This document shows, piece by piece, positions 2,752-13,834 of a stretch of DNA of 27,500 bases (positions within the stretch are counted from its first letter, which is position 1; every line of letters begins with the position of its first letter). The stretch is from assembly GCA_018398765.1 (NCBI GenBank), contig JAHBMJ010005751.1, forward strand, positions 1 through 27,500, in the 5' to 3' direction. A program made the translations under genes and the position numbers. The notes under the pieces are model-generated. The model saw only the letters and a program-made list of their open reading frames with translations, did not search any database and was not told the origin of the DNA. This stretch comes from Chromera velia (lineage: Eukaryota > Sar > Chromeraceae).

Positions 2752-5700
2752 GTGGTGTCCGTCTATCCGTTGTTTGTGCTTCGAACTGGACTGGGGTTGA
2801 TGGGGGCAAGGAGGCATTTCCTGCCCCGAGTGGCGGCCTCTCGGTTGGCAGCGACTCAGGGAGTAGCAGCAACTCGGGGAAGCGCGAGAGTATGTAGGGG
2901 GGGGGGGNGGGGGGGGGAGGAAGTCGGGGGGGCAGGTTTGGAGTTGACGCTGAGGGCGTCCGTCTTGTCCCGTCTCTGCTTGAAAGTGGACGTCTGCAAA
3001 CCCCACCACATTGGGTCGAGGCCTGCTCCGGGGCTTCATGAGGAGGGCAGCCACGAGTTGACGGGTCAGGGTTTTGATCAGGGGGCGGACTCTGGAACAA
3101 GAGGGCAGGTGGTCTTGGATGAGCAGGGACTGCCTTACTGGCGAGATGTTGACAAGACGGGTGGGTCGTGAAGCCTGCCTGTTGTGTTCCCAGCCCTAGT
3201 CCCAGCCTTGCGTGCTCCACGATTCCTGTGCTCACTCGCCCAAGCTGTTCTTCCCCTTCCCGTTCTTCTGTCCTGGACCTCAAGCTCAAAGACCTCCCTA
3301 CTCTTTGCACTTCTTTTTGCTCCCCTGCTACCCCTTCTGCGTTGGGTTCTTTCCTCCCCTCCCCCTTTCGATTTGTCTGCTCCTTTCTGACCGTCCTCAT
3401 CCTCCCTGGTCCTTCCACAGCTCCTGCCTTGAGCAACTCTGAATCCCTTTGGTTCGTAGTCTTCTTTCCGATCGACCTCCAAGCACGTCTACGTGTGCAT
3501 GGTGCCCTGTTCTTCTGCCCTTCCCTCCCTCTATGTCCCCTCCCCTTCTGCGCTTATCTCCCGTGGTTCCTTCTTCCCCCCTGTGGTTCGGTCCCTCACC
3601 CCCCTTCTGTCTCTACTTGCGTCCTTGCCCTTCGTTCTCCCCTGCCGTTCTGTCCTCACCTGTTTGCCCCCTGTTTCTTTTCCAGCCATGCCCTTCGTTC
3701 CCACCGGCCGTCCTGTCCTCACCTCTTGCTCTTCCAGCCATGTCATTCGCCCCCCCCTGCCGTTCTGTCCTCACCTGGCCCTTGCCCCCCCTTCGCAGTT
3801 CCGTCCTGTGCTTTCCTCTTGGGACCTCCGTAGCTGATCACTGCCTTCCCCACTTCTTCTTGAGTCCCTCGAGCTGGGTTCACAGGCCAAAGATTTCTTC
3901 CCCTCTCTTTCCTGCAGGTGCCTGGAGGGATCTCGGGAGGACCTTGAACCTGCCCAACCTGGGACACCTGTCTGCAGCCCAACGAGAAGTGGTGGGTCGA
4001 GCGTGTCCGTCCTGTCGACGGGTTTTGTCCGTTGGTGGACTCACGTCTCTCCCTCTCTGCGTGCAGCCTCTTGACACCGAACGGGAAGTCGACCGCGACG
4101 CTTTTCCATCTCAAGGTGTGTCCCCAAGGAATGTGCTCGTCGCCCTTTTCCGTTTTCTGCCTGGTCACGCAGTTATCTCAAGGTCTCGTTTTCTTCGGCT
4201 CGACCCGAGGCTGCAGTCCCCTTTTTTTTGGAGTGTCACCATCCGAAAAAGAAGCGTCATCCGGCTGTCACCACCATTTGAAGGTGAAAGCAGGGGACCG
4301 GTGACAGTGGTGACAGTGGTGACACCTCTTTCCAAAAACTTTTCTTTTCTATACAGCCCCTTCTCTTCTTTTCTCTACATGCTTTTTCTAAAAAGGTGTC
4401 ATTAGTGTCACCACTGTCACCGGTGAGGTGCTTTCACCTTCTTGGGTGGAGGACACTTCAGTTTGAAGACTGTCACCCGCGGTTGGAAGTGTCACCTCTC
4501 TCTCTTTTGCCTGTCTGTGCGGCCTTCTTATGAGGCCTGAGCCTTCGAGTCTCATTCTTACTTGCTCTTGGTCCTGTCTGGCTTCTCCAATGATCTTGAG
4601 GTAGGCACTCTTCCTCCCGGCCTCCCGCCGCGCTCCTTCTCCCCTCTCCTTCTCTCCCATCGTTCTCCTACTCTCCTCCCCTGCTTCCCACCGCCCACCT
4701 TCTCCTCCTGTTGCGATACAGGACCCCCCTTCCTCCGTTCAGTGTGGCCCTGGGCTCTCTTCTGTTCTTGCATTCCTAGGTCCCTCTCTGTTTTTTTCTC
4801 TCCCTTCTATCCGCCCTCCAGCTGTGCCCGCTTGCCGCCTCTCTTCCTTGAGGAACGTGCGTCTCTTCTTCTCTGCCTGCCTTCGCTTTCTTCTCCGCAG
4901 CCGATCACTGTCTCTCCCACTTCTCCTTGTGTCCCTCGAGCTGGGTCTTTCTCCAAAGGCCAAGTCATTTCTTCCCCTCACCTTCCTGCAGGTGCCTGGG
5001 GGGATCTCGGGGGCACCTTTGTCCTGCACAACCTGGGATACCTGTCTGCAGCCCAACGAGAAGTGGTGGGTCACGCGTGTCCGGCCTGTCGACGCGTTTC
5101 CTCCGTTGGTGGACTGACGTCTTTCTCCCTCTGCGTGCAGCCTCTCCAGACTCCCATCGCCCCACTGGAAGTCGACTGGGACGCTTCTCCTTCTGCAGGT
5201 ACGTTCCCGAGGGATGGGTTGGTCGCTTCTCTTGTTTTTTGCCTGGCTAGGCAGGTCTCTCAGTTCACCTTTCATCGGTTCGAGTTGACGCTGCAGTTCC
5301 CTTTCTTTCGGAGTGTCACCATCCGAAAAAGAAGCGTCATCCGGCTGTCACCACCATTTGAAGGTGAAAGCAGGGAATCGGTGACAGTGGTGACAGTTGT
5401 GACACCGTTTCCAAAAACTTTTCTTTTCTATACAGCCCCTTCTCTTCTTTTCTCTACATGCTTTTTCTAAAAAGGTGTCACTAGTGTCACAAGTGTCACC
5501 GGTGAGGTGCTTTCACCTTCTCGGGTGGGTGACACTTCGGTCGGTTTGAAGACCGTCACCCGCGGTTGGAAGTGTCACCTCTCTCTCTTGCCTCTCTGTT
5601 CGGCCTCTTTATCAGGCTTGAGCCTTCGAGCTCCTTCTTATTTCTTCTGCGTTGTCTTTCTGCCTTCTCAAACGGTCTTGCGGCGGCGGAAGCCCTTCCT

Positions 5701-8700
5701 TCCTCTTCCTTCCGGGCCTCGTGCCGCCCCACCTCCTCCCTCACCTCCTCCTTCTCCCCACTTCTCTTCTCCTCTCCCTGCTGTCCGCCCTTCCTGCTTT
5801 CCTCCTGTTGCGATCCTGGACTGCTCATGTCCCTCCTTCTTCCGTTTTCTGTGGCCCTGGGCTCTCTTCTGTTCTGTCTGGTCCTTTCCGCTCTTTCTCT
5901 TCTTTCGCCCTGTCTGCTTTCTTCCCGCCTTTTTTTTAGCTGCTTCTGGCGATGCCTGCTTCTTGCACCTTTTCCTTGGGGGGAAGTGTCTTTCTTCTCT
6001 CTCTGGCCCTTTGTTTCCTTCTCAGCTCGTGTCGACTTGGTTTTTGTGTCCTTGATGCAGGCCGATGTGAAGGTATTGGAGAGACCTCTGCCCTCCAGAA
6101 CATGGGGCCAAAGGACGACGTCTGCCCCCACCTGTTTGCAACCCTACGACAAGAAGTGAGCCGGCCGGGCGTGCCAGCAGGGGTCTCAAGCGCTTTTCTG
6201 TCCCATCTTTTTGTTCGCGTGTCTCTGCCCCCCCCTTGCGTGTCTCTATCCTTTTTCCCGCCGCCCTGGTACCCTGCGTGCAGCCTCTAGAAATCTCTGT
6301 CGCTCTCATGGATGGCCGCGCGTGTCCTGCAGGTGGGTCTGCAGACCATGCAGCTGTCCCGCCCTCCTTCGGCTCTCCCTTTTTTGTTCTCCCTCCTTTC
6401 TCCTGTCGTCTTGTCTGTCCGTCCTCCCTGTCCCGCTTTCCACTTTCGTGAGCTTGTGTACCCATGCCGCTTCATTTGGTGTGCTGGCCTCTCTTATCGC
6501 GGGCCTGCTCCAAACCGCTTTCCTTCCCTCCTGGCTCTTTGCAGGTCCCCGCGGGCGTCTTGATAGAAGCCCCGTGGGGAGGAAGGTGGCCGAGTCGAGC
6601 CTGGGGCCCGAGGGTGCGGCCTGGGAGCTTCTTCAAGCGGTGAGTGGATCGTGCTTGCCCTGGTGGTCTGAGGTTCTGTTGACTCGTTCCAAGCAAGACC
6701 TTAGCCATAGTGTGTGTGTGTGCAGGCTCTCCACACCTCCAGTCTGCTGCCGGACGAGCGGGACCCTGCCAGAAGCAGTCGAATTCCTCCCGCAGGTGCG
6801 TCTGTGTTCCTTCTTTTTTGGTGTCTCGGCCACCCGACTTCGATCCTGCCAGTATGTGCAGAAATGCCTTTTCCTTCTGTCCCCCCCCAGCGTTTTTGTC
6901 TGTGGTCCTCTATATGGGCCGTCTGGCCTTTTGGCCCACTCGATGATGCATGCGAATGTGGCCTCTTTGCGGCGTGCAGCTTGGGCGGTTTCGAGCAAGA
7001 CAAGGAATCGGCTTGCCCACATGTCCAATGGGAACAGTTCGGCGACAGAGAGATCGACTTGGGAGGAAAAGAAGCAGCAGGCGATCGACTTCAGCGATAT
7101 CCCGCAGAAACCTTACCTTCGGGAGCTTCCTGCCGAGAAGTTTCAAGACTGGGATGCCAATTTAGACGCCGCGACAAAAGAGGAGCTCATCCGGACACTT
7201 CTCAAGATCCCCATCCCGCAGCCCCCGCCGGCACCCCCTCAAGGTCTGTCTTCGCTCATCCTGTCTCTGCTTCTTAACCTCCTGTTCGACCGTCAGGCAG
7301 GCCTCCTTGTCTCGGCTCTGTGTCTCTTTTCGTGTGCCGTCCGTCACCCTCTAGGACCTCGGCTCTCTGCTTTTTCTCCTGATTTGCGTGTGACTCGTCT
7401 GGCTTGACCTGGCTTCCCCTTCCCGGTTTTTTTCTTTTTCCGTCGCGACCTCGCCCGCACGAAAAATTCTCCATCCTACACTCGGCATCTCCATCTCTTT
7501 AAGTTGACATGCGCGTGCCATGTGCGGCTGGTTGGTCGGGTGTGTCGTAATGGATGGAACCGTCAGACAGCGTGCATGCGAGCCATGGTGGGCGTGTGTG
7601 CCTGCGTCAAGAGGCTTGGTCTTTGTCTTTCGACCTTTGAGTGTCTGCGGGCCTTTCCCGTTTTCCCAGCATCATGCGTTCGACGTCGCCAGATGGAAGT
7701 GCGCGAGCTCTCTGTGTGTGTGAGTGGCTGGCTGTGTGAGAAGCCTGAGCGCCGTGTCTGCGGGCTTCCCCCCCCCTTTTCTTTTTCTCGTCGCCCGAAC
7801 AAAAATTCTCCATCATATATTCGGCATCTCCATCTCTTTAATTGACGTCCGAATGTTGCGTGTGACTGTTGTCCAGCTGTTGTGTGGTGGGAAGGAACCG
7901 TAGGGAGTGTGGATGCGTGCCATGAGAGAAGTGCGTGTGTGCCTGGATCGAAAGGTCTGGTCTCGGTGTTGCGTGGTCTGCCGAGCTTTGAGTGTCTGCG
8001 AGCTTTTCCCGTTTTTTTTTCGTCGGCCGAACAAACATTTCTCGAGGCTGGCTTCTGCGACCAAAAATTGCTCCAGCATGCGTGAGTTTGCCTGCTGTGA
8101 GACGACTGGACTGGTCGTTCGTCCGTAGAGGTTGCACCGTCTCGATCCCTGAGTGTCTGCGGGTCCGCCCGGCTCCCGTCAGGATCACTTTTTTCGTCGT
8201 CCGCGCCGAAAATTTCCCCAGCATACTTTTTGACGTCGCGTGTGAACGGTGGCTGGCTTGTCTGTGCCCTGCATACATGGTGGTTTGTCTGTGCGATGAC
8301 CTGGATTTTTTTTTGTCGTTGCGTGTTTTGTCTGTTCATACACGGCAGGTTCTGTTGATGCGAGACCGCTCGACGCGGTCACAAGGGCCCTTCAGGAAGT
8401 AGTGGCAGCTCTCCAGGCTATGGCACAGACCCCGGGCTCCAGACCATCTGGACAATCACAACGCAGTCCGCCTGCGCAACGACCGTCCCCATCCTTAGTT
8501 TCTTCTCCCGAACATACGCTTGCTTCTCCACCTGACCCTACAGCTCCACTAACAGAGGGCGGTTTGCCTCCGAGCCAGCAGGCAGCGTCTTTGGGAGGCG
8601 CCACAGCGAGAGCAACACATGGGAGCGGCCCTCCGAACGTTGATGGCCTTTCAGAACAAGGACCCGATGTTTTTGAAGAGCCTGGCGTGACTGCAACACC

Positions 8701-8842
8701 ATCATTCTGCTTGGCTCCTTACATGTCAGAACCAAGCAGAACCGTATGTGAGACTCCCGAACCGGTCTGCATTGCAGCAAACCAAGCGGCAAAAACGATT
8801 GATCGATCTGCGGGCTCTAGTGGCCATCGCAACGTTTTATAG
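2752..8842 (+). CDS. gene A: unrecognised multi-exon protein with tandem exon-pair modules (5' exon not located)
   Basis: I rebuilt 12 exons: 2752-2889, 2936-3160, 3918-3991, 4067-4115, 4992-5065, 5141-5198, 6061-6155, 6284-6332, 6545-6639, 6726-6795, 6980-7243 and 8349-8842 (stop TAG). All phases join; the visible protein is about 561 residues. Acceptors are mostly TGCAG and donors mostly GTNNGT. Exons 3-10 form four A+B pairs encoding repeats such as GAWGDLGGTFVLHNLG. Exon 11 has an acidic/amphipathic stretch (TWEEKKQQAIDFSDIPQK) and a proline run (PIPQPPPAPP). Exon 12 starts with a helical segment (VTRALQEVVAALQAMAQ) and then becomes Ser/Pro-rich. I recognise no family and assign no function. 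The intron at 2890-2935 is only 46 bases and contains poly-G with an N, so that junction is the weakest. Exon 12 could instead be the first ORF of the block that follows. Confidence 0.6.
2936..3160 (+). other. gene A exon 2 (best-supported early exon)
   Basis: The frame is open for 225 bases in phase 1 and encodes residues such as LTLRASVLSRLCLKVDVCK and LPYWRDVDKT. It ends at a GTGGGT donor whose phase fits the first module exon at 3918. The acceptor GGGGGGGCAG has no pyrimidine tract. Another frame runs open across the poly-G from 2752, so a fused longer exon is possible if the poly-G length is wrong. Confidence 0.45.
3918..4115 (+). repeat. gene A module 1 (exons A1 3918-3991 and B1 4067-4115)
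   Basis: A1 enters in phase 1 and leaves in phase 0 at GTGGGT. B1 leaves in phase 1 at GTGTGT. The pair encodes GAWRDLGRTLNLPNLGHLS then AAQREV and PLDTEREVDRDAFPSQ. A1 and A2 are both 74 bases and differ at about eight positions. Confidence 0.75.
4231..4497. repeat. intronic foldback, copy 1
   Basis: This sits in the intron between modules 1 and 2. Arms at 4280-4326 and 4395-4441 are inverted copies built from GGTGAAAGCA, ACCGGTGACAGTGGTGACA and TGACACC blocks. Outer blocks (GTGTCACC at the left, AGTGTCACCT at the right) continue the GTGAC theme. The loop is pyrimidine-rich. Copy 2 at 5311-5580 is about 95% identical, which is closer than the coding exons beside it. Confidence 0.8.
4992..5198 (+). 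repeat. gene A module 2 (exons A2 4992-5065 and B2 5141-5198)
   Basis: Same phases as module 1 (1 to 0, 0 to 1), with donors GTGGGT and GTACGT. It encodes GAWGDLGGTFVLHNLGYLS then AAQREV and PLQTPIAPLEVDWDASPSA. The homology with module 1 extends into the upstream intron (4900-4990 against 3830-3917), so the duplicated unit is about 1,075 bases. Confidence 0.75.
5311..5580. repeat. intronic foldback, copy 2
   Basis: Near-identical to the element at 4231-4497, at the equivalent place in the intron after module 2. Small changes break some arm pairs (for example GGGGACCGG to GGGAATCGG), but the overall inverted structure is kept. The intron between exon B and the foldback (4122-4230 against 5205-5310) is much less similar. 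Confidence 0.8.
6061..6332 (+). repeat. gene A module 3 (exons A3 6061-6155 and B3 6284-6332)
   Basis: A3 is 95 bases and B3 49, with phases as in the other modules and donors GTGAGC and GTGGGT. The peptide GRCEGIGETSALQNMG aligns with GAWGDLGGTFVLHNLG of module 2, and PLEISVALMDGRACPA aligns with the B2 peptide. An insertion of about seven residues lengthens A3. No foldback follows this module. Confidence 0.65.
6545..6795 (+). repeat. gene A module 4 (exons A4 6545-6639 and B4 6726-6795)
   Basis: A4 is 95 bases like A3 and B4 is 70, with phases 1 to 0 and 0 to 1 and donors GTGAGT and GTGCGT. It encodes GPRGRLDRSPVGRKVAESS and LHTSSLLPDERDPARSSRI. Sequence similarity to modules 1-3 is weak; membership rests on position, exon lengths, phases and the shared G/GxxG start. 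Confidence 0.5.
7244..8348. repeat. intron 11 of gene A, filled with degenerate tandem repeats
   Basis: The last intron (donor GTCTGT, acceptor GGCAG) holds at least four diverged copies of a block with GAGTGTCTGCGGGC, a pyrimidine run, CGTCGCCCGAACAAAAATTC and CATCTCCATCTCTTTAA. Copies of the first part lie near 7638, 7757, 7988 and 8150; copies of the CATCTCTTTAA part lie near 7490 and 7830. Spacing is irregular (about 120-230 bases). The opposite strand is open for about 250 codons across the tract, which I attribute to the repeat structure. Confidence 0.7.
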
Positions 8843-8867
8843 AAATAAGAACATGAAAGCAACATAA

Positions 8868-9601
8868 ATTAAATCGATCTTCCCCGCTTCTATCCGAACG
8901 CTTATCGCCAGCTTCCTAGCCCATCACCACCCTGCGAGCAGTCTGGTTATCCCTTTTCACATTCTGCCATTTGCAACTGCTGGCACTCAAATTGTTGAAG
9001 CTTCGATAAGTCTCCTAGATGTACTAGATGAAAGCTTACTAGATGATGCCTCGGTAGTAAACCTAGTAGGGTTTGAGCCTCTTCTTCTAGTAGGGCCTGA
9101 GCCTTTTCCTACTACGGCACTAGAGCGTGGCCTCCAAGCTACAGGCATTTTGCAATGTGTGCAGACCTTAGTGCATGTAGATGGATGGTGGCTGTGGGCT
9201 CTCAAAGCTCCAAGTATGATCCACTGCCGCCTTTTCCCGTCCACCGTCCCTTTTCGATATAAACGGCTTTTGGAGCGCATCATCGAGTCCCGCCTGCAGG
9301 TCCGTGTGCAGACTGCAGTCCTACCGCAGCTTTGGGAAAACCTACATTTTGATACTGTTGCCCCACTGTGGCACTAGCACCCCTTTCAGTATCAGCACAA
9401 CTTTGCAGCTTTCTAGAACCAGCGCGTGATGCGCATCACATTTTTGAAACAGGGGGGACCCTAGAGTCTCTCTTGCGGAATAAAAACGCCGACCTCCTGT
9501 GTTTTGATCGACGGGTTGCTGAGCATCTCCATAATTTAGCGTTGTGCATGCGGGATCGTGGAGCGTGGCTCATTGCCTCTGCACTCCGCTTTATAGAATA
9601 A
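8868..9601 (+). pseudogene. broken ORF upstream of the GIY-YIG ORF
   Basis: The frame is open from 8868 to a TAG at 9375-9377 (segments such as SLLDVLDESLLDDASVVNL and VHVDGWWLWALKAPSMI). A second open frame, entered around 9353-9374, continues to TAA at 9599-9601 (FLEPARDAHHIFETGGTLES, MRDRGAWLIASALRFIE). The two overlap by about 20 bases and the joined peptide reads smoothly, so I take it as one gene with a one-base frameshift. No start ATG is visible near 8868. I see no retroviral-type slippery heptamer in the overlap. No known domain is recognised. The stop is 11 bases before the ATG of the next ORF, which suggests a compact multi-ORF element. Confidence 0.5.
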
Positions 9602-9612
9602 AGGAAAAAAAT

Positions 9613-10161
9613 ATGCTTGCTGGTGGAGCTATCGCCTGTTTGATCAACATAGACCGCCCAATTCTCTATGCGTTAAAAAATCCTTTCCTAGCATCTCCAT
9701 CGCTTATTAAAATTGGTAGCACTTTAAAAAACCCTGACCGGAAAGTGGACCAGTATTATTTATGCTATTCATGGGGTTTCAACATTATCTGTATCCTAGT
9801 GTTTCTGCCTGGGGTCATGCACACACGGCTGAATCATTTTGAACGATTGCTCCTTGACTTATTCAGCGACTATAAGCTCAAAAGTCTAGTGTGGATTTTT
9901 GAGTCCCGCCAAGAATGGCTAATTAACGTTTCCCATGCATATGTACTAGCAACGTTCCGGTCTTTTCGTGACCAGGTCGTGAAGCAGGTTTATCGAATCG
10001 ACTCATACTTATTATGGTCCAATACACATTTTTTGCCTGATTATGACTTTTATACAGAATTTGAAATCCTGGATGAAAAGCACAAAATCCTGAAGAATAT
10101 TGCCCTGAGTCAGGAAGAATCAAAAGCTAACCGGACAGCACGTCAGCGGCAAAAAATATGA
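9613..10161 (+). CDS. T5orf172/MUG113-like GIY-YIG domain protein
   Basis: An intact 182-residue ORF starting at ATG 9613. The hallmarks of the T5orf172/MUG113 branch of the GIY-YIG superfamily appear in order. A first strand, GAIACLIN (residues 5-12), is in the GIY position. LIKIGST (31-37) is in the YIG position. A basic turn follows (KNPDRK, 39-44). A helix HFERLLLDLF (75-84) carries the conserved Glu, and RQEWL (99-103) is in the position of the family's REWF motif. GIY-YIG proteins are mostly DNA endonucleases, while T5orf172/MUG113 members are common in phages, large DNA viruses and fungi and mostly of unknown role. The C-terminus is basic (SKANRTARQRQKI), fitting nucleic-acid binding. 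The ATGA at 10158 overlaps the next ORF. The first GIY Tyr is not obvious, so catalysis is uncertain. Confidence 0.6.
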   Translation: MLAGGAIACLINIDRPILYALKNPFLASPSLIKIGSTLKNPDRKVDQYYLCYSWGFNIICILVFLPGVMHTRLNHFERLLLDLFSDYKLKSLVWIFESRQEWLINVSHAYVLATFRSFRDQVVKQVYRIDSYLLWSNTHFLPDYDFYTEFEILDEKHKILKNIALSQEESKANRTARQRQKI

Positions 10162-10346
10162 GCAGACGAACGAATCATACAAATAAGCGTTCAAGAATTG
10201 CATTAGGCTTTGGGCCTTGATTACAAGGTCCAAGGAAGCGGCGATCTCAATCTGTTTCATCAATATCTCAGAGTCAAAGGCATGCTTCTATCTTAAATCC
10301 GGAATACAGGCAAAGAGCCAGACTCAATGACTTCTCAATCTTCTGA
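10158..10346 (+). pseudogene. basic, Ser/Arg-rich ORF with an internal TGA
   Basis: It starts at an ATG overlapping the previous stop (ATGA) and reads MSRRTNHTNKRSRIALGFGP, then a TGA at 10218-10220. It continues in frame through PRKRRSQSVSSISQSQRH to a stop at 10344. The composition looks like a nuclear-localisation or DNA-binding linker. It lies between the GIY-YIG ORF and the chromodomain, so it may be a decayed linker of one fusion protein or a separate small protein. Confidence 0.4.
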
Positions 10347-10605
10347 TGACGCAGAGTGGGAGGTCGAAAAAATTCTTGATTACGATGAGAGGCGCAACCA
10401 GTATAGGGTCCAATAGAAAGACTACCCGTCAGGTCCAGACAATCCACAATGGATTCCAGCATCAAACTTCCAGGGTACCGGGGACCGCCTGCTTGTTGAG
10501 TACCATCATAAAGTGAGGCAAGACGTCCAGCTGCTTAATGAACGCCTGGCAGTCCTCGATTTTTTTGAGATAGAGGATTCCATGGACCACGCAACTGCGG
10601 AATAG
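10327..10605 (+). pseudogene. chromodomain ORF interrupted by TAG
   Basis: From ATG 10327 the frame reads EWEVEKILDYDERRNQYRVQ, a TAG at 10414-10416, then KDYPSGPDNPQWIPASNF and a helix RLLVEYHHKVRQ, with the final stop at 10603. This is the classic chromodomain order: an aromatic/VEKIL strand, the YxVxWKGY strand, the TWEP-like turn (PQWIP) and the terminal helix. The TAG lies exactly where the conserved Trp of WKGY/WKDY belongs, so a one-base TGG to TAG change is the simplest reading. Chromodomains bind methylated histone tails and are carried at the integrase C-terminus of Ty3/gypsy chromoviruses, but no integrase precedes this one. It is in the same frame as the GIY-YIG ORF at 9613, with stops between. 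Confidence 0.7.
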
Positions 10606-10608
10606 GAC

Positions 10609-10928
10609 TGTAGGGCCTGTACGAGGCGCCGCCTCTGGCTGGCAGGAGACTCAGTCGCTTGACGGGCTGCTCGCACGGAGTATGGGCACGGGATCGATGA
10701 ACGCGTGCGTCGGTACACAGAATCAGTGATCGATACACAAAGTGATGCATTTGTTCTGTGCCAAGGAGAAGAAGCTCTGGAAGCAGTATGATTGGCATGA
10801 GTGGTTGCTATCAGAAACTCTAAGATGGAACTCCCTCTAAGAATGTCTGTTCAGGAATCTCTCTGTCTAGCCCACCACACTGCTAGCCTAGTAGTTACCT
10901 AGCATGATAGCCCCGTACGCAGCTAACA
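10609..10928 (+). repeat. 5' LTR
   Basis: It begins TGTAGGGCCTGTACGAGG and ends CGCAGCTAACA. It differs from the right copy at about 13 positions, 11 of them transitions. Confidence 0.8.
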
Positions 10929-10931
10929 GAT

Positions 10932-10944
10932 TGGTTAGCAGAGC
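10932..10944 (+). promoter_or_regulatory. putative primer-binding site
   Basis: TGGTTAGCAGAGC lies three bases after the 5' LTR. It looks like the complement of a methionine tRNA 3' end, with one extra base. The matching tRNA is not in the window. Confidence 0.45.
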
Positions 10945-13501
10945 TTTTGGTAACACAGGGAGGCAGATGTGGTGTGGATCGCAAACTTTGTTGTATTGAC
11001 GAACAGTTAGGCCGGATAGAGAATCCTCATCATTGTACGCAAGGCCTGTACTGACAAGAGTGCAGTGCCAGTTCGCTAGTGGAAAAATTCGTTGAAGGAA
11101 GAGAGATTTCGTCTCCTTTGTATTGTTTGTTCTTGAGTCGAAATTTGTGGTGGACCTGAGACTTTCTTCCAGATGTGATGGAGCGTGCTGTTTCTTTCTA
11201 TTCTCTTTGTCTTGAGAGAGTCCTCGGAACTCAAGGTTGCTGGCCCGCTGGAGATGAGGGTCCAGAAGGACGAGCTTGAGGAGGGAGACCATTCAGTCTG
11301 ATTGACTGAAGTGACTGACTGACTGCCGTCTCTGCCGATTGTGCTGCAATGAAGCACGAGGTGTCCAGGCCTACAAAGAACGCGCCCAGGTGATGGAGGA
11401 GATGTTCTTGGTTGTTTTGTTCTGTGAGCTGTTTGGGATGGAAAGAGGAAGGGCATCTTGTGAAGTGGAAGGTTGGTTGTGGTGACTAAATGGTGACTGA
11501 AGGTGTGTGGCCTTCTCTGTCTTTGTTTGCAATCATCTGTGCCGCGTTTCCAAATGCTCAGTTGTGCTATGGAGGCACCGCGGCAGCCGCACATCTTCAA
11601 GTCAGTGAATTATTGAATTGTTTTCTTTTGGTTGTGTGTTAAAGTTGGGAAATTTGCTTTGGGGGGAGGAAGGAATGGGTGTGAGAGTGAGAGGTGAAAA
11701 AGAGAGTGTGTTGAGGTGGTTGGGTCTGGTGGCTGGTATGTCTGATTGTATCTCTCTGTACATCCTGACTGTATTGTGTCTTCATGGTGGGAATGAATCA
11801 TGGGGGCCACGGCAGTTGGGAAAGAAAGAGAAAAAAGGAAAGAAGAGGAGAGGAAGGAAAAGAGGTTGAAGGTGAGGAGACTGAGGGTTTGTTGTGGCGA
11901 GAGGAGATTGTCGAAGAGAAGAGATACAAATACAAAGTAAGAAGAGGCAATCAGGAGAAGAAGAGAAGTGACTTCGTGTTGGGAATGACAGTGGGATAAG
12001 GAAAGGAGAGGCTGCATGTCTTCAGTGCTTGGGCACGGCCGCCTGGGGACTGATAACTTCAGCTGGGATTCATGCAGGGTGAATGTTGGTATGTTGCTTC
12101 TCTGGCTGTCTCTGTACGTCTGTTGTCTTCGTATTAAGAAAGAGCAAGAGTGGAGTAGAAAGTGCAGAGTGAGTGACCATAGCGCTGACGCAGCAAATGA
12201 GAAGCGTGAGAAGAAAAGAGACTGTTAATTGTAGTGGGGTCGCACCCTACGCAATTCCTACACATCTGTCGTTGTTCTTGATGGCCCGTGAATGTTGCAT
12301 ACGTATAATTGTGCAATAGTTGACGAGTCGATTAAGAATTGAGCATCACGAAAGAAACGCCGAAAGAAAAAGAAAAACGATCGGAATGTCTGAGTGAGAA
12401 ACTGTGATCAAAGAAAGGTGTGTCTTGACACAGCGGGAAGGAGGAAGCCCATGTGAGATCAGAAGTCATGACGCGCTTCAGGGAGGCCCTTGTCTTTGTC
12501 TCTTACTCTCTTACATGTGATCTCTCTATGAGTGTTCATATGCTTGAGGCAAACACTGACATGAATGATTTTCTGGTCGTGTCGACCTGTGTTCTTGAAG
12601 GGTTACCTCGTAAGAGGGAGTCTCCTGAGCATTCATGTTTTAAATCTGGTGTGCAGTTTGGGGCACAGATTCAGTAGTGAGGAGGGCGGTCTCTGTAGAG
12701 AGGCAGGTGGTCGCTGTGTGAAGCAGAGAAGGAAGAGGTGATCACAGGGTGGCCGAAACCACCTGGTCATTCAGACATTCTCGACACATTGCGTGAAGTC
12801 GCTGTAAGGAAAAGAATGAGGGGGGTTGGTATCGTCTGGCGGCGGACGGTTGGCGTCTCTTGTGTGTCTTTTGATACACTGTGCAGTCGCGATACCAGAC
12901 TCCTGTATGATCTTGAGCCAATGTACTGTGATGACCCTTGTCTTGCCAGGATCAGTCAGTCACAGTGTGAGAAGTGCAGAGCAGAGTAAAGAAAGCTGAA
13001 GCCTGAGGTCGCGCCTCAGCATGATTGTAGCAAAGCGTGCACCGTTGGCAACCGCATTTGCGCGTGTGTGGTCGCAGTCGACCCGAAGAGTCAAAAGAAC
13101 GAACGAACGAATGGAAGTGTGTGAAGGTGTATGTAGCTGCACATTATTAGCAGCGGTCATGCAACTCGGCTTGCGCATTGGGACAGGCCTGAGGTGAGCA
13201 TGTATGGCCAAGCCCTGTTCAGAAGAGTAAACGCATGCATTACAGTCCTCGGCGTAAGCAGGTGGCGCGTGCTGTGATGTTGTAGAAGAGTTGGGCCTGT
13301 TGTTTGGCGCTTTGGGGTCACTGTTTGCTCTGTTAATTATGTTATTTCGGTTTGTGTATGATGGTGTGTGTGGTATGATCGTTTTGCCCACCCTACCCAC
13401 CCAGCAAGCGGGCAGATGTAGGGATATGTAGGGTGAGACGGTGAAGCGTGTGTTTTGTGTGTGTGAGTGAGAGTGTGAGCCGAGCGTGGACGTCGGCCTT
13501 G

Positions 13502-13514
13502 GCGAGCGGGCAGA
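13502..13514 (+). promoter_or_regulatory. putative polypurine tract
   Basis: GCGAGCGGGCAGA abuts the 3' LTR start. The combination GCGGGCAGATGTAGGG also occurs about 100 bases upstream, near 13409, as if the PPT/LTR junction had been locally duplicated. Confidence 0.45.
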
Positions 13515-13834
13515 TGTAGGGCCTGTACGAGGCACCGCCTCTGGCTGGCGGGAGACTCAGTCGCTTGACGGGCTGCTCGCATGGAGTATGGGCACGGGAT
13601 CGATGAACACGTGCGTCGGTGCACAGAATCAGTGATTGATACACAAAGTGATGCATTTATTCTGTGCCAAGCAGAAGAAGCTCTGGAAGCAGTATGATTA
13701 GCATGAGTGGTTGCTATCAGAAACTCTAAGATGGAACTCCCTCTAAGAATGTCTGTTCAGGAATCTCTCTGTCTAGCCCACCACACTGCTAGCCTCGTAG
13801 TTACCTAACACGATAGCCCCGTACGCAGCTGACA
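13515..13834 (+). repeat. 3' LTR
   Basis: Same length as the left LTR, ending GCAGCTGACA, followed by AGGAT, which matches four of five bases of the left flank. Confidence 0.8.

Follow-up and report, generated by a model that had tools for sequence, protein, structure and literature searches.

Cryptophyte polinton-like viruses (PMC12220804) carry fusions of an archaeo-eukaryotic-type primase with an S3H-type helicase (AEP–S3H) as well as GIY-YIG genes of the T5orf172 type, which are mostly stand-alone, and virophages, Tlr1 and transpovirons are recorded in PMC3671162 as combining GIY-YIG, Zn-ribbon and helicase modules. In two further papers (PMC12910113 and PMC9033089) the GIY-YIG domain and the chromodomain belong to separate elements, and a GIY-YIG–chromodomain fusion was not found in print in the open-licence PMC literature, which was covered mostly as titles and the first lines of abstracts. 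Here, a stretch of 27,500 nucleotides from Chromera velia (contig C3823:1-27500, the whole of which is referred to below as the window) was analysed, and the genome was searched for related sequences (177.8 Mb in 4040 contigs). The window probably contains one truncated and decayed copy of a eukaryotic mobile DNA element that is present many times in the genome and that encodes a GIY-YIG–chromodomain fusion protein and a convergent PrimPol–D5 protein and has iteron-bearing palindromic ends; its mobility and mechanism we infer from sequence. An original prediction, made from the window alone, had proposed a mobile element with a T5orf172/MUG113-type GIY-YIG nuclease and a chromodomain and with no visible reverse transcriptase or integrase, and this central idea was supported by the relatives described below.

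One decayed gene and its relatives

The reading frame beginning at 9613 is broken in the window by stops at 10159, 10204, 10294 and 10414, with a last stop at 10603 (translation). The same frame is unbroken in two relatives from the same genome, copies L009 (4788-6173, 462 amino acids) and L010 (524-1741, 406 amino acids). The region is one decayed GIY-YIG–linker–chromodomain gene and is a pseudogene in the window (Table 1). The original prediction had correctly noted an open reading frame (ORF) at 9613-10161 and, further downstream and in frame with it, a chromodomain-like stretch, but the picture of several packed ORFs was not upheld: what had been read as GIY-YIG, 'basic' and chromodomain ORFs is a single broken gene, and ORF1 is another. 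Tight ORF packing as a sign of mobility was thus ruled out. The ATGA overlap at 10158-10161 is present in the sequence but is due to chance and not to gene packing, because the 'basic' ORF, which is in another frame, begins at the first broken codon of the GIY-YIG gene; the 11-base gap after the stop at 9599-9601 is likewise present but is produced by the shifted frame of ORF1.

The window copy alone had no match to the Pfam GIY-YIG models, and the GIY-YIG identity, which could not be demonstrated from this copy, was recognised through profile matches on several others. A whole-genome search with T5orf172 (PF10544) gave six matches at E<=1, five of them above the cut-off and all five being copies of the GIY-YIG–chromodomain family; the best (contig C3553) covered profile positions 3-100 of 101 with 36.5 bits. 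Among 14 aligned copies T5orf172 was matched in five at E<=1 (best 1.6e-8) and MUG113 in two (best 0.0013). Of the presumed catalytic positions, Tyr, Lys-x-Gly and Glu-Trp are mostly conserved in these copies, and Arg is present in 12 of the 13 rows covering its position, where the window has Lys. A single-sequence AlphaFold2 model of the window ORF had a mean pLDDT (predicted local distance difference test score) of 40 and was not used. The Pfam Chromo model was matched above the cut-off in L010 (3.2e-10) and L014 (8.9e-6) and below it in L009 and L015, and the L010 chromodomain is nearest by sequence to HP1/CBX structures. In the window this stretch was recognised via tblastn matches from L009 and L010, and its stop at 10414 replaces the Trp of the WKDY motif seen in the chromodomain of relatives.

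Six-frame searching with the GIY-YIG ORF yielded at least 114 genome matches (the window included), which merged to 87 loci and are not attributable to chance. The ratio of non-synonymous to synonymous substitution (dN/dS) was 0.13-0.27 in 15 of 15 pairs from the window's subfamily (159-181 codons) and 0.10-0.21 in four of ten pairs from the other subfamily, the remaining six of which were saturated. In the partner gene, the helicase part gave 0.16 between L018 and L032, and the other eight computed pairs were saturated. The coding sequences evolved under purifying selection, and from the low dN/dS the proteins thus stayed functional as the copies spread.

A second family (L010, L011, L021, L022 and L028), approximately 32% identical, encodes the same kind of protein, with the fusion complete in L010. 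Left of the GIY-YIG gene, short GC-rich repeats containing CTTCTGTAGTCGC motifs are common to its left ends in L022 and L010, apparently in tandem in L022. Copies L016 and L024 have 3.5 kb in common on and about the fusion gene, and their minus-strand ORFs downstream of that gene had weak or low-complexity Pfam matches only.

In the window's subfamily the fusion gene (+) is preceded by ORF1 (+), which is a gene in its own right. An open frame of 248 residues in L032 is matched over its residues 54-248 by the window remnant of ORF1, the match being split in two by a frameshift near 9368. By tblastn its protein was matched in 13 loci (the window, L012, L013, L017-L020, L025-L027 and L030-L032) and was unmatched in L009, L014, L015, L016, L024 and the second family; the L032 frame had no match in Pfam or PHROGs.

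The convergent PrimPol–D5 gene

Downstream of many GIY-YIG copies, and on the opposite strand (-), lies a gene for a protein with Prim-Pol, PriCT_2, D5_N and DUF5906 domains, which belongs to the relatives and not to the window copy and was missed in the original prediction. It is intact in L029 (809 amino acids), where Prim-Pol (3.2e-8), PriCT_2 (5.8e-16) and D5_N (9.6e-5) were all above the cut-off and DUF5906 (1.4e-4) was below it; the L029 protein also matched a PHROG DNA primase (1.2e-29) and the D5 primase structure 8apl (0.0025). The 87 merged GIY-YIG loci were set against 41 PrimPol/helicase loci, the genome-search rows behind these counts being lower bounds. A PrimPol/helicase match was present within 6 kb of 25 of the 87 GIY-YIG loci, and in 22 of these 25 it was downstream and on the opposite strand (convergent). 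The spacing was 1512-1912 bases in 20 of the 22 convergent loci, the exceptions being C1430 (339) and C3475 (5876). C3766 (L014 and L033) differs from most copies in that its PrimPol-type gene, a single open frame comprising two primase-like halves, is upstream of a GIY-YIG gene and on the same strand.

Outside this genome, a search of approximately 5.8 billion proteins, in which 7996 candidates were scored, gave two at E 1e-5. The nearer of them, P0001, has 31% identity over 90% to the L029 protein and is encoded on an 8.7-kb metagenome contig. Viral contigs compared with P0001 and with single proteins of L029, L010 and L009 yielded no relative in a search that reaches close relatives only.

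This partner bears on whether the window gene is a fragment of known retroelements, in which the chromodomain of a Ty3/gypsy chromovirus or the GIY-YIG domain of a Penelope-like element had been joined by chance. Each domain is indeed known separately in retroelements (PMC9033089, PMC12910113), yet one open frame holds both in L009 and L010, the partner is PrimPol–D5 and the profile matched is T5orf172. Reverse transcriptase, RNase H, integrase and tyrosine recombinase were absent from the Pfam-scanned ORFs, the whole genome not having been searched for integrase or recombinase, and the content between the inverted ends of L009 and L029 is accounted for by genes other than reverse transcriptase. 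The relatives carry the chromodomain inside the GIY-YIG ORF and not in a gypsy pol, the alternative that the original prediction had allowed for. A gypsy or Penelope origin is contradicted by the shared open frame and the PrimPol–D5 partner, and a chance joining of this kind is scarcely credible.

Palindromic ends and the limits of the copies

Inverted repeats were sought in 20 copies. In L009, positions 1280-1597 pair with 9766-9437 (78% over 332 bp, approximately 8.5 kb apart) and enclose the intact fusion ORF and a broken PrimPol gene; in L029, positions 2585-2826 pair with 6384-6138 (85% over 248 bp, approximately 3.9 kb apart) and enclose PrimPol only. A candidate 31-bp inverted pair also brackets the GIY-YIG gene in L013, and the remaining inverted pairs in the 20 copies were confined to one gene or one flank. 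The L009 and L029 termini are palindromic: TGACACTT-like iterons recurring every 9 bp precede an AT-rich core, which is followed by the same iterons in inverted orientation. The left terminus of L009 is common to L016, and the iterons are shared by L009, L029, L016 and the window.

Two palindrome modules related to these termini are present in the window (Table 1), both overlooked in the original prediction, as was the element that begins at 10609. Compared with the L009 and L029 termini, their core is shorter and T-rich and their left half consists of degenerate iterons. The double iteron had three window matches against 0.10 expected; the bare octamer was less striking (five against 1.39 expected, equalled in one of 100 shuffles). 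There is a single iteron cluster in the window (5400-5572), and none of 100 mononucleotide shuffles produced any. The fold z was -8.2 for 5300-5590, -10.3 for the left end of L029 and -3.2 for the right end of L009. In the genome the triplet RGTGTCANNAGTGTCANNAGTGTCA occurs 17 times and its reversed control 0 times, and the module at 5300-5590 has 28 longer matches. Palindromes of the window type lie within 12 kb of 13 GIY-YIG loci, upstream and co-oriented in 11 and downstream in two (C243 and C3477), the downstream palindrome of C243 preceding a second GIY-YIG copy. The module at 5300-5590 is a candidate left end of the element, or else an intron-borne relative of such an end.

A unit of approximately 1.08 kb, composed of an exon-like piece (LSAAQREVVG-ACP-CRRV...) and then a palindrome module, is tandem in the window (3920-4506 and 4990-5590), and paired palindrome modules approximately 1 kb apart are also present on C3477 and C201. 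Element palindromes inside apparent introns would recall introners.

The stretch from the palindrome to ORF1, referred to here as the left arm, comprises T-rich sequence, an exon-like piece and a repeat. The arm repeat was upstream and co-oriented in 16 of the 16 GIY-YIG loci having one within 10 kb, and 22 of 38 merged arm loci had no GIY-YIG locus within 10 kb. L026 aligns to window positions 5362-10600 at 82%, and the similarity of C243 extends leftward to window position 2488. The left arm may be cargo, a further gene of the element, or a host gene family neighbouring the elements. The exon-like piece at 6946-7242 is unrecognisable when compared with L026 1457-1955, while the intron-like flanks are 83-92% identical, as in gene families under diversifying selection.

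The arm also gives some footing to a host multigene family, in which a domesticated or homing-type fusion gene would have been spread by segmental duplication of the left-arm genes, with the PrimPol element as a separate neighbour. The tight linkage and common orientation of left-arm genes and palindromes, the arm loci without a GIY-YIG gene and the different partner gene paired with the fusion in the second family would all fit. Set against these are the PrimPol spacing and orientation kept across diverged copies, the enclosure of both genes within one inverted pair in L009 and the stops in most copies, and we regard this origin as improbable.

The window copy ends where an element with long terminal repeats (LTRs) starts (Table 1). 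The LTRs are 320 bp, 96% alike and have TG...CA ends, LTR pairs 2.7-3.0 kb apart were found on at least five other contigs, and the flanks, AGGAC and AGGAT, are alike in four of five bases; the one scanned ORF of this element had no Pfam match. Beyond it the GIY-YIG element was not found to resume, and LTR insertion alone therefore cannot explain the lost right part. Circular permutation was also considered and dropped, no permuted order having been noticed by eye in the match rows.

Table 1. Features of the window, in order of position, with the observations on which each was placed.
Feature	Position	Strand	Basis or remark
Palindrome module copy 1, related to L009/L029 termini	4220-4506	+	93% identity to 5300-5590; iteron pair 4394-4410
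Palindrome module copy 2, inverted iteron triplets round a T-rich core	5300-5590	+	Fold z; sole iteron cluster in the window
Exon-like piece, left-arm gene family	6946-7242	+	32 genomic matches; GT-like end
Left-arm repeat	7400-8350	+	70 genomic rows
ORF1 remnant, no known domain	8892-9511	+	tblastn against the L032 frame
GIY-YIG–linker–chromodomain pseudogene	9613-10605	+	In-frame stops; tblastn; open frames of L009 and L010
T5orf172-type GIY-YIG region	9664-9966	+	Analogy with L015 residues 18-118; C3553 profile match and copy alignment
Chromodomain region	10354-10506	+	Pfam Chromo in L009, L010, L014 and L015; window frame translation
LTR-type element, its start being the end of the GIY-YIG element copy	10609-13834		Repeats 10609-10928 and 13515-13834

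Interpretation and comparison with described elements

Several observations count against a mobile element of the kind proposed. No PrimPol/helicase match lay within 6 kb of 62 of the 87 GIY-YIG loci, the window included, where copies may be truncated, cut off by the end of a contig, paired with another gene or too diverged, and on C258, C2710 and C3766 PrimPol is otherwise arranged. The place held by PrimPol–D5 in the first family is taken in L010 (2264-3499, -) and L028 by an AAA/ATPase_2-like gene convergent to the fusion gene, and L016 and L024 had no PrimPol match in the sequence examined. Only two of 20 copies were bracketed by inverted repeats longer than 200 bp, no right-hand palindrome of the window's subfamily was found among iteron-cluster and genome matches, and no target duplication was seen in the flanks examined of L009 and L029. 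Copies differ in the flanks right before ORF1 and in their right limits, and there was no empty site among eight arm loci without GIY-YIG (one of which, L038, contained an ORF1 fragment). As to the nuclease, the GIY-domain profile had no PDB match at E<=10, and the L009 protein and GIY-domain alignment had no homologue at E 0.01 outside the genome among 5.8 billion proteins at word-based sensitivity. The presumed catalytic helix Glu is Lys in five of 14 copies (L009, L014, L016, L024 and L025), and catalysis is therefore doubtful in those five.

The variable copy limits would also suit remnants of endogenised polinton-like viruses or virophages, in which PrimPol–D5 and GIY-YIG would be the replication genes left over from larger viruses that encoded capsids and were broken up by recombination. 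Cryptophyte polinton-like viruses often have both AEP–S3H fusions and T5orf172 genes (PMC12220804), and the nearest outside protein, P0001, comes from an 8.7-kb metagenome contig. The ends of L009, however, are 8.5 kb apart, leaving room for no more than small genes beyond the fusion and PrimPol, and the 3.9-kb unit L029 contains PrimPol only. In the left arm of L009, 14 of 22 ORFs of at least 70 amino acids, the longest (237 amino acids) among them, had no Pfam match, whether to capsid or packaging genes or to others, the whole genome not having been searched for capsid. A viral remnant is accordingly doubtful, although less so than a host gene family.

For the mobile element that we favour, palindromic ends suggest hairpin or inverted-repeat replication, and the PrimPol-only L029 suggests that PrimPol and the palindromic ends form the core, with the GIY-YIG–chromodomain protein either added to it or acting in trans. 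Iterons that adjoin melting regions are sites of action of SF3-type helicases and PrimPol proteins, and branched DNA is a substrate cut by GIY-YIG enzymes, SLX1 for example. The PrimPol–D5 protein would recognise the iterons, melt the core and copy the element; the GIY-YIG domain may nick or resolve the terminal palindromes, cut target DNA, or both; and the chromodomain could tether the complex to marked chromatin, giving biased insertion sites. A stronger and tentative proposal, possible but well short of probable, is that these are eukaryotic DNA transposons of a new, self-replicating class, in which PrimPol–D5 copies an element bounded by iteron-bearing palindromes that form hairpins and a chromatin-reading GIY-YIG nuclease replaces the transposase, resolves the hairpins and directs insertion to marked chromatin.

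If its mobility were confirmed, this would be a small eukaryotic element that has neither capsid nor DDE integrase nor reverse transcriptase and replicates by a virus-type PrimPol–helicase, and the GIY-YIG–chromodomain fusion would, if true, be a further, independent way for mobile DNA to find a chromatin target. Ty3/gypsy chromoviruses (chromodomain) and Penelope-like elements (GIY-YIG) resemble it in having one of the domains each in mobile DNA; unlike in these, both domains are here in one protein beside PrimPol–D5, with no reverse transcriptase among the scanned ORFs. Virophages, Tlr1 and transpovirons are likewise small elements joining GIY-YIG with a helicase or primase, Tlr1 fusing helicase and GIY-YIG, but in Mavirus and OLV the GIY-YIG domain is fused to a Zn-ribbon and not to a chromodomain, virophages have capsids, and the term chromodomain is absent from PMC3671162. 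P0001 has the same Prim-Pol, PriCT_2, D5_N domain order as L029. Polinton-like viruses share the primase–helicase fusion, the T5orf172 genes and repeated insertion into protist genomes; they are however 14-40 kb in size with morphogenesis genes (PMC12220804), whereas here 3.9-8.5 kb lie between inverted ends, GIY-YIG is fused to a chromodomain and no capsid or integrase was recognised in the scanned ORFs. The element family is apparently undescribed, the window being a dead copy of it; what is apparently new is the protein fusion and the compact form, and in kind it is closest to the replication module of polinton-like viruses.

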